In this document: positions 13,657 through 18,528 of the stretch, one piece after another
How the letters are laid out: every line of letters begins with the position of its first letter
How positions within the stretch are numbered: the stretch's first letter is position 1
Assembly (NCBI GenBank): GCA_026391415.1
Contig: JAPLEL010000048.1
Location: forward strand, 1 to 33,521
Source: Bacteroidota bacterium
GTDB taxonomy: Bacteria; Bacteroidota; Bacteroidia; Chitinophagales; Chitinophagaceae
Reading direction: 5' to 3'
DNA length: 33,521 bases
Notes under the pieces: generated by a model
The model's database searches: none
Seen by the model: the letters and a program-made list of their open reading frames with translations, nothing else
Told to the model about the DNA's origin: nothing
Program-made: the position numbers and the translations under genes

Positions 13657-14577
13657 ATGTCTTTAGTAGTAGTAGGATCTATGGCTTTTGATGCCATTGA
13701 AACCCCTTTTGGGAAAAGTGATAAAATTATTGGCGGCGCAGGAACTTATATTGCCTGGTGTGCCTCAAATTATACAGCTGTAAAGCAAATTTCAGTGGTT
13801 GGAGGTGATTTTCCTGAATCGGAACTTACGGCACTAACCAATAGAAATGTAGATTTAGAAGGGGTTCAAATTAAAAAAGACGAGAAAACTTTTTTTTGGA
13901 GTGGCCGCTATCATTTAGATATGAATTCGCGTGATACTTTAGAAACACAGTTGAATGTGCTAGAAAATTTTCAACCAGTTGTTCCCGAAAGCTACCAAGA
14001 TTGCGAGTTTTTAATGTTGGGTAATTTAGCTCCATCAGTTCAAAGAAGTGTGATTGAGCAATTAAAGAACAGACCTAAGTTAATTATCATGGATACCATG
14101 AATTTCTGGATGGAAATTGCCATGGATGACTTAAAAAAAACCATTTCAATGGTGGATGTTTTAATGGTGAACGACAGCGAAGCACGCCAATTAAGTGGTG
14201 AGTTTTCATTGGTAAAAGCCGCTAAGTCTATCTTACAAATGGGTCCTAAATACTTAATTATTAAAAAAGGCGAACACGGTGCTTTATTGTTCCATGAAAA
14301 TAAAGTTTTCTTTGCGCCAGCATTACCATTAGAAGAAGTGTTTGATCCTACAGGTGCAGGTGATACTTTTGCTGGTGGATTTATTGGTCATATTGCAAAA
14401 ACAAAAGATATCTCTTTCAATAATATGAAAACAGCTATTATAGTTGGTTCTGCAATGGCTTCTTTTTGTGTTGAAAAATTTGGCACACAACGTTTAAGAG
14501 AAATTAATAAAGCTGATATTGATAGTAGAATTGCAGAGTTTGTACAACTAGTAAATTTTAATATTGACCTAGTGTAA
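13657..14577 (+). CDS. PfkB-family carbohydrate/nucleoside kinase
   Basis: GGAGTYIAWCASNY, LIIKKGEHGALLF, DPTGAGDTFAGGFIGHIA. Confidence 0.92.
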   Translation: MSLVVVGSMAFDAIETPFGKSDKIIGGAGTYIAWCASNYTAVKQISVVGGDFPESELTALTNRNVDLEGVQIKKDEKTFFWSGRYHLDMNSRDTLETQLNVLENFQPVVPESYQDCEFLMLGNLAPSVQRSVIEQLKNRPKLIIMDTMNFWMEIAMDDLKKTISMVDVLMVNDSEARQLSGEFSLVKAAKSILQMGPKYLIIKKGEHGALLFHENKVFFAPALPLEEVFDPTGAGDTFAGGFIGHIAKTKDISFNNMKTAIIVGSAMASFCVEKFGTQRLREINKADIDSRIAEFVQLVNFNIDLV

Positions 14578-14598: not shown

Positions 14599-14630
14599 TT
14601 TGGCATTCAAAAGGTTTCGCAATAGTTTCG
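14599..14630 (+). promoter_or_regulatory. Candidate promoter of the asd leader
   Basis: TTTG (14599-14602) N20 TAGTTTCG (14623-14630), one mismatch from TAnnTTTG. Confidence 0.45.
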
Positions 14631-14637
14631 CACCACA

Positions 14638-14682
14638 ATGATGATTTTAAAACATACAAAACGTACCAAGAAACCTCTCTAA
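14638..14682 (+). CDS. Candidate attenuator leader peptide MMILKHTKRTKKPL (14 aa)
   Basis: ATGATGATTTTAAAACATACAAAACGTACCAAGAAACCTCTCTAA; 9 of 14 residues are Met, Ile, Lys or Thr; stop codon 3 nt upstream of an antiterminator strand. Confidence 0.6.
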   Translation: MMILKHTKRTKKPL

Positions 14683-14684
14683 AA

Positions 14685-14732
14685 GGAAGGTGACTCAACG
14701 TTGTGTATGCTGAATATACTTAGAGGCCTTCC
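14685..14732 (+). promoter_or_regulatory. Candidate antiterminator pairing in the asd leader
   Basis: GGAAGG (14685-14690) is complementary to CCTTCC (14727-14732), which lies in the 5' arm of the terminator; mutually exclusive with terminator. Confidence 0.55.
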
Positions 14733-14754
14733 CAAACTGGGGAGGCCTTTTTTT
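14724..14754 (+). terminator. Intrinsic terminator/attenuator upstream of asd
   Basis: AGGCCTTCCC (14724-14733) AAACT GGGGAGGCCT (14739-14748), 10-bp stem with one GU, T7 (14748-14754). Confidence 0.85.
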
Positions 14755-14845
14755 AGGCTCATCACAACAGATACAATTGTAGATAAAGAATCAATTAATT
14801 AATCAATTTCGTAAAAACAATCCCCAAGGGGGCGGAGGTTAAAAA

Positions 14846-15802
14846 ATGAAAGTAGCCGTAGTAGGTGCCACTGGTTTAGTAGGTACTAAAATGTTGCAAG
14901 TATTAGCAGAACGTAATTTTCCAGTTACAGAAATTATTCCTGTAGCATCTGAAAGATCAGTGGGTAAGGAAGTGATATTTAAAGAGAAGTCATATAAGGT
15001 AGTTAGCATGGAAGATGCTATTGCAGCAAAACCTGCTGTAGCAATATTTTCTGCTGGTGGTAGTACTTCATTAGAGTGGGCGCCAAAATTTGCAGCCGCT
15101 GGTATTCGTGTAATTGACAACTCTTCTGCATGGCGCGTAAATGCCAATGTATTAACTGCAGAAGATTTTATTATTGCCAATCCAAATTGTTCTACTATTC
15201 AAATGGTGGTTGCATTACAGCCGCTACACTTAAAATATAAAATTAAACGTGTGGTAGTTAGCACTTACCAAAGTGTTACAGGCACTGGTAAAAAAGCAGT
15301 AGACCAACTCTTTAATGAGCGCAAAGGTATTGAAGGTGAGATGGCTTATAAATATGCTATTGACTTAAATGTGATTCCACAAATTGATGTTTTCTTAGAT
15401 AATGGTTACACCAAAGAAGAAATGAAAATGGTGAAAGAAACCAATAAAATTATGCAAGACGATAGTATTCGTGTAACGGCTACTACTGTTCGTATTCCTG
15501 TTGTGGGTGGTCATAGCGAAAGTGTGAATGTTGAATTTGAAAATGAATTCGATTTAGTTGAATTGACAAATGTTTTAAAAAATGCTCCAGGTATTATTGT
15601 TCAAAATGACGATGCCAATCAACTATATCCAATGCCTTTATGGGCACACGAAAAAGACGAGGTATTTGTAGGCCGTTTGCGCAGAGACGAATCACAAGAT
15701 AAAACTTTGAATATGTGGATCGTAAGCGATAATTTACGCAAAGGTGCTGCTACCAATGCTGTGCAGATTGCAGAATATTTATTAAGCAAGGGATTGTTAT
15801 AA
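14846..15802 (+). CDS. asd: Aspartate-semialdehyde dehydrogenase
   Basis: VAVVGATGLVGTKMLQVL, catalytic Cys in ANPNCSTIQMV, STYQSVTGTG, VGGHSESV; GGAGG SD-like at 14834-14838. Confidence 0.95.
   Translation: MKVAVVGATGLVGTKMLQVLAERNFPVTEIIPVASERSVGKEVIFKEKSYKVVSMEDAIAAKPAVAIFSAGGSTSLEWAPKFAAAGIRVIDNSSAWRVNANVLTAEDFIIANPNCSTIQMVVALQPLHLKYKIKRVVVSTYQSVTGTGKKAVDQLFNERKGIEGEMAYKYAIDLNVIPQIDVFLDNGYTKEEMKMVKETNKIMQDDSIRVTATTVRIPVVGGHSESVNVEFENEFDLVELTNVLKNAPGIIVQNDDANQLYPMPLWAHEKDEVFVGRLRRDESQDKTLNMWIVSDNLRKGAATNAVQIAEYLLSKGLL

Positions 15803-16486: not shown

Positions 16487-18528
<2,042 letters not shown>

Follow-up and report, generated by a model that had tools for sequence, protein, structure and literature searches.

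The thrL leader of enterobacteria (RF00506) carries Thr and Ile codons and controls thrABC. The element that we describe here lies before asd in a 33,521-nucleotide contig from a bacterium of the family Chitinophagaceae (the window, by which we mean the whole stretch of DNA analyzed). It likewise appears to combine codons for end products of the aspartate family with alternative antiterminator and terminator structures, but it is rich in Lys codons and stands before asd or dapA. With the RF00506 Thr_leader model it scored 13.9 bits, where the cut-off is 55. The Bacteroid-trp motif (RF01692) acts on trp through a leader mechanism and thus has another target than the asd element; its model had no match at gathering score in the window or in the trpE leader of the same genome. 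This motif is listed among the cis-regulatory RNAs of Bacteroidetes (PMC2864571). Leader-peptide attenuation, the type of mechanism that we propose for asd, has been noted in the same phylum before amino-acid operons of Flavobacterium psychrophilum, in a main-text section that names no asd, dapA or lysine leaders (PMC9723704). A leader-peptide role was suggested in Sinorhizobium for the small ORF SEP5, which contains six codons for Thr and three for Lys and belongs to the 5′ UTR of a gene said to encode aspartate dehydrogenase (PMC10117765). SEP5 differs from the asd element in belonging to Alphaproteobacteria, in being dominated by Thr and in its conservation only within Sinorhizobium, and the passage that presents it describes no attenuator structure (PMC10117765).

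For lysine itself, the control named in the literature is the L-box riboswitch (PMC1262725). That riboswitch resembles the proposed asd element in its effect, with lysine genes controlled according to lysine, but works by direct ligand binding, and its model found no match in the window at gathering score. The asd RNA motif (RF01732), a structured RNA linked to asd by name, was reported from Lactobacillales (PMC2864571) and has no match in the window. Passages in the literature name attenuators or candidate leaders for Trp, His, Phe, Thr, Leu, Ilv and Cys, those for Cys without terminators. A lysine leader of the attenuator type was not found in the literature searched, largely open-access papers. 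The proposed attenuation mechanism is classical, and its lysine specificity is provisionally new. We propose, with a probability of about 0.83, that a ribosome-mediated transcription attenuator controls asd in the window and that it senses charged lysyl-tRNA.

The element between the kinase gene and asd

The gap between a PfkB-family kinase gene and asd contains a promoter, a mini-ORF, the sequence GGAAGG and a terminator, in that order. The features are as follows, in window coordinates.

13657-14577, co-oriented with asd: PfkB-family kinase gene, upstream of the leader
14599-14602, + strand: promoter -33 element TTTG, read from the sequence and kept in relatives
14623-14630, + strand: promoter -7 element TAGTTTCG, ending 7 nt 5′ of the leader ATG
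14638-14682, + strand: leader ORF MMILKHTKRTKKPL with its stop codon, conserved, with nearly invariant Lys and AAA/AAG exchange
14653-14664, + strand: 5′ arm of stem P1, CATACAAAACGT, inside the ORF and covarying with the 3′ arm
14685-14690, + strand: antiterminator 5′ strand GGAAGG, enclosed by P1 and covarying with CCTTCC
14698-14709, + strand: 3′ arm of stem P1, ACGTTGTGTATG, covarying with the 5′ arm
14724-14754, + strand: intrinsic terminator, a 10-bp hairpin and T7, with hairpin and T-run kept in relatives
14846-15802, + strand: asd, aspartate-semialdehyde dehydrogenase, above cut-off for NF011456 and TIGR01296

The two promoter elements, of Bacteroidota type, are separated by a 20-nt spacer. 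The leader peptide has 14 residues, 9 of which are Met, Ile, Lys or Thr with the start Met included, and its Lys codons begin at 14650, 14659, 14668 and 14671. GGAAGG starts after a gap of 2 nt 3′ of the leader stop codon. Its partner CCTTCC (14727-14732) sits within the 5′ arm of the terminator, which reads AGGCCTTCCC-AAACT-GGGGAGGCCT followed by T7 and has one G-U among its 10 base pairs. A preliminary description had placed the promoter, ORF, GGAAGG, CCTTCC and terminator here, and each position is borne out by the sequence. Folding of 14630-14845 gave z = -3.8, and none of 200 shuffles was as stable.

Because the terminator is located between two co-oriented genes in the window, it might serve the upstream kinase gene, with the ORF arising by chance. 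We consider this barely credible: the promoter and a conserved ORF intervene between the kinase gene and the terminator, and synteny leads us to reject it, since the element stays with asd at the 48 of 82 loci where the kinase gene is absent upstream.

Several other features of this region were recorded. At 957 nt, asd in the window is shorter than in relatives (987 nt); some 10 residues are missing in frame after SAWR and before the IIANPNCST motif, a stretch that is conserved in relatives, and either a true deletion or an assembly error could explain this. Directly before the asd ATG (14815-14845) are a C-run/G-run, CCCCAAGGGGG, and GGAGG, with similar CCC..GGG and GGAGG stretches in some relatives (L007 and L014); Bacteroidota rarely use Shine-Dalgarno sequences, and a GGAGG at this place is unusual for the phylum. 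Farther downstream, the minus strand encodes an NAD-dependent DNA ligase in two separate ORFs (16487-17644 and 17725-18528), between which part of the adenylation domain is lost; this is a pseudogene or an assembly error.

Conservation and codon content of the leader

Sequence comparison established the parts of the element, their conservation, their covariation, the constraint on Lys and the spacing. In a genus sample of 60 relatives plus the window's own genome, about 40 loci carry the leader in near-identical form, M-x3-K-H-T-K-[RQ]-x-K-K-P-x-stop. Leader, promoter and terminator are absent from ten genus loci (L011, L029, L030, L033-L035, L043, L051, L052 and L054), where asd lies close behind the kinase gene. 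The genomes of these ten members measure 1.5-2.1 Mb, so loss of the leader may accompany small genomes. A covariance model (R1), built from 28 sequences and run with E up to 0.1, placed the element in 219 of the 299 genomes scanned from Chitinophagaceae, representing 91 of 104 genera. It almost always stands before asd, and among its carriers are Sediminibacterium roseum, Niabella ginsengisoli, Niastella yeongjuensis and Limnovirga soli. Across the class, 48 of 395 genomes matched R1 at a loose threshold; part of these matches, and part of the weak ones outside the family near E = 0.01, were inspected. Clear asd leaders are also present in several other families of Bacteroidia, where the element is rarer, and the asd loci examined in Pedobacter, Sphingobacterium, Mucilaginibacter, Dyadobacter and Hymenobacter had no such leader. 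At E 0.001, 11 of 396 genomes from the phylum matched, all except one in Chitinophagaceae. Two further R1 matches in the window's own genome (L140 and L142) look like chance.

The promoter is kept along with the leader. Of 135 leaders, 115 have TAnnTTYG within 25 nt of the leader ATG, where shuffles would give 4.4, and this element mostly ends 6-9 nt before the ATG; TTTG is found 17-23 nt, mostly 19-20 nt, before the -7 element in 96 of the 135. For this class of Bacteroidota promoter, the usual distance from promoter to start puts the start of the transcript at or very near the leader ATG. With the window promoter ending about 7 nt before that ATG, the leader mRNA would begin at or very near it and be nearly leaderless.

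We examined codon content in 136 distinct asd leaders, having removed by eye 11 ORFs from loci that lack the element. Every leader has at least three Lys codons (mean, 4.5), a count made slightly circular by this removal, and Lys makes up 28.3% of residues compared to 15.7% in shuffles. Leaders of 14 codons (n = 56) have Lys at codons 5, 8, 11 and 12 in 53-56 cases, with AAA and AAG exchanging; codon 11, for instance, is AAG in 40 and AAA in 13. Diversity in this class is 0.058, 0.21 and 0.318 at codon positions 1, 2 and 3, and the alternative frames hold stops in 118 and 91 of the 136 leaders. The A-rich arm of P1 could account for part of the Lys bias, although the stem does not include codons 5, 11 and 12. 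The element is also found upstream of dapA, in four genomes belonging to two genera; MQLIKKHTKRVKKHSKREG is one of the leaders there (DapA identified by TIGR00674). DapA opens the lysine branch. Coding constraint, together with Lys conserved before both asd and dapA, points to a short, putatively translated ORF with end-product codons, as in known attenuators. The dapA loci examined in the window's own genus have no leader, and by eye dapA there closely follows the end of an accA-like gene.

In line with the preliminary description, the leader might sense Lys, Thr, Met and Ile about equally. Many Chitinophagaceae leaders are indeed rich in both Lys and Thr (for example, MIIMKHTTKTKKQLPQMEGV), a leader has 1.9 Thr on average, and most residues at codons 2-4 are Met, Thr, Ile, Asn or Lys. 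Nevertheless, Thr is missing from 14 of the 136 leaders, Ile from 35 and non-initiator Met from 42, while Lys is missing from none. Outside Chitinophagaceae, Thr yields to other residues; dapA leaders keep Lys; and a separate Thr-rich leader precedes thrA in the window's genome. Sensing of all four amino acids is therefore unlikely, and we favor lysine over the aspartate family as a whole because Lys is conserved and Thr, Met and Ile vary.

The peptide is also short and strongly basic, and drug-sensing upstream ORFs with alternative structures are described (for example, in PMC12121999). The leader might then report translation stress or ribosome-targeting drugs in general, with stalling caused by the basic nascent peptide and not by the charging of Lys-tRNA. 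This is very improbable, given that the element is tied to asd and dapA rather than to resistance genes and that no 14-codon leader replaces Lys by Arg at codons 5, 8, 11 or 12.

Alternative pairings and their spacing

P1 and the antiterminator helix were scored for covariation in the 28-sequence alignment. Jointly they reach 0.170 compared to 0.108 when shuffled; none of 500 shuffles attains this score, and slid helices stay at or below 0.051. In P1, where CGT in the ORF changes to CAA (Arg to Gln), the opposite arm changes from ACG to TTG to match, although this may be a single ancestral event counted many times. The antiterminator varies as GGGGC:GCCCC in L008, as GGGAG:CTCCC in L048 and, in other families, as GGAAAGG:CCTTTCC. 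Swapping partners among the genus sequences weakens both pairings, with 4 of 5,000 and 0 of 5,000 permutations matching the real sets; for the antiterminator over 136 leaders, 0 of 2,000 permutations reach the real set. CCTTCC common to both structures, covariation and compensated variants all indicate that antiterminator and terminator would exclude each other. Between the P1 stem and the terminator, a further hairpin (GTAT:ATATAC) is only semi-conserved.

A conserved RNA structure and a terminator before a biosynthetic gene would also suit a metabolite-binding riboswitch or a T-box, to which the ORF would be incidental. A known riboswitch or T-box was rejected, as the Rfam models gave no match at gathering score. 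The structure has no conserved large unpaired core, the ORF is under coding constraint and its stop codon is positioned relative to GGAAGG, all of which make any reading of this kind highly implausible.

The position of the stop codon follows two patterns. In leaders of up to 15 codons, the stop codon's first base and the start of the antiterminator strand are nearly always 2-6 nt apart. In longer leaders the ORF passes through GGAAGG, often with an end such as ..REG.. or ..GKC, and the stop lies directly behind. The two arrangements were noted from L016, L048 and L055 and from longer leaders of the family. Both positions adjoin GGAAGG, so a terminating ribosome would cover it either way.

We then considered pairing in a nascent-RNA model in which the ribosome is assumed to extend, at its 3′ edge, 13 nt beyond the first base of the A-site codon. 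In the window, the predicted antiterminator pairing is 0.09 without a ribosome, 0.81 with a ribosome stalled at the first or the last Lys codon and 0.17 with one at the stop codon. The corresponding family means are 0.68 for free RNA, 0.86 for the first Lys, 0.71 for the last Lys and 0.06 for the stop. With the spacing of the 136 leaders and the assumed footprint, a ribosome at the stop codon is thus predicted to mask GGAAGG and a stalled one to release it. The masking is robust in the model, though partly built in by blocking those bases. In the absence of a ribosome, P1 blocks the modeled antiterminator in the window but not in most relatives; it should give termination without translation, clearly in the window and weakly in most relatives.

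A proposed lysine attenuator and its sister leaders

These comparisons suggest how the switch could work, and coupling, stalling, lysine as the signal and the direction of control are what we infer. Transcription would start at or just before the leader ATG, with a ribosome trailing RNA polymerase along the mini-ORF and its many Lys codons. A shortage of Lys-tRNA would stall the ribosome at a Lys codon, where it would hold P1 open and leave GGAAGG free to pair with newly made CCTTCC; no terminator would form, and asd would be transcribed. With plentiful lysine, the ribosome would proceed to the stop codon and cover GGAAGG, allowing the terminator to form. An untranslated leader would likewise terminate, through P1 enclosing GGAAGG. 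Judged by its sequence, the asd element is a match to a classical attenuator in every feature tested at that level, with the picture divided for the protector stem, where P1 covaries but is predicted to block the antiterminator in the window and not in most relatives. The attenuator of the preliminary description is supported by its conserved parts and fitting geometry, and the ORF composition and alternative pairing on which it had been made to depend are both conserved across Chitinophagaceae; its aspartate-family specificity was too broad, and stem P1 had been missed.

Other leaders in the window's own genome serve as internal comparisons. The Thr-rich thrA leader, MYLQPLHIISTTCTATLLHTAVTTTTSTTTTL (L280:2984-3082, minus strand, on G000:C43), lies about 100 nt upstream of a gene for bifunctional aspartate kinase-homoserine dehydrogenase (NF006959); with an inverted repeat and a T-run behind it, it is a candidate thrL-like attenuator. 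The leader MKQTTQLHHHHHNLPNW (L139:1501-1617) precedes hisG, which is over its cut-off, and MNKLTNKYWWWHTNFERGL (L141:1501-1620) precedes trpE, for which the assigned family is the best match but below cut-off; both leaders are on G000:C228. A terminator follows each of them, and at gathering score no Rfam family matches either. The organism seems to devote a separate leader attenuator to each of these amino acids, and by comparison with the thrA, hisG and trpE leaders we read the asd leader as the lysine one.

Beyond this locus, the element probably represents a family of lysine-specific attenuators, conserved in Chitinophagaceae and scattered in other Bacteroidia, that act on asd and in some genera on dapA, are nearly leaderless and use two interchangeable arrangements of the stop codon. 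A conserved lysine leader would add a new specificity to attenuators, and it offers a candidate mechanism for controlling the aspartate branch point in Bacteroidota. If the proposal is true, the leader takes the role in these bacteria that the L-box riboswitch has for lysine elsewhere. The matching Trp, His and Thr leaders in the same genome form a natural set for probing a ribosome-coupled switch with near-leaderless initiation. The same set bears on the coupling of transcription and translation in Bacteroidota, for which Niastella and Sediminibacterium provide cultured carriers.
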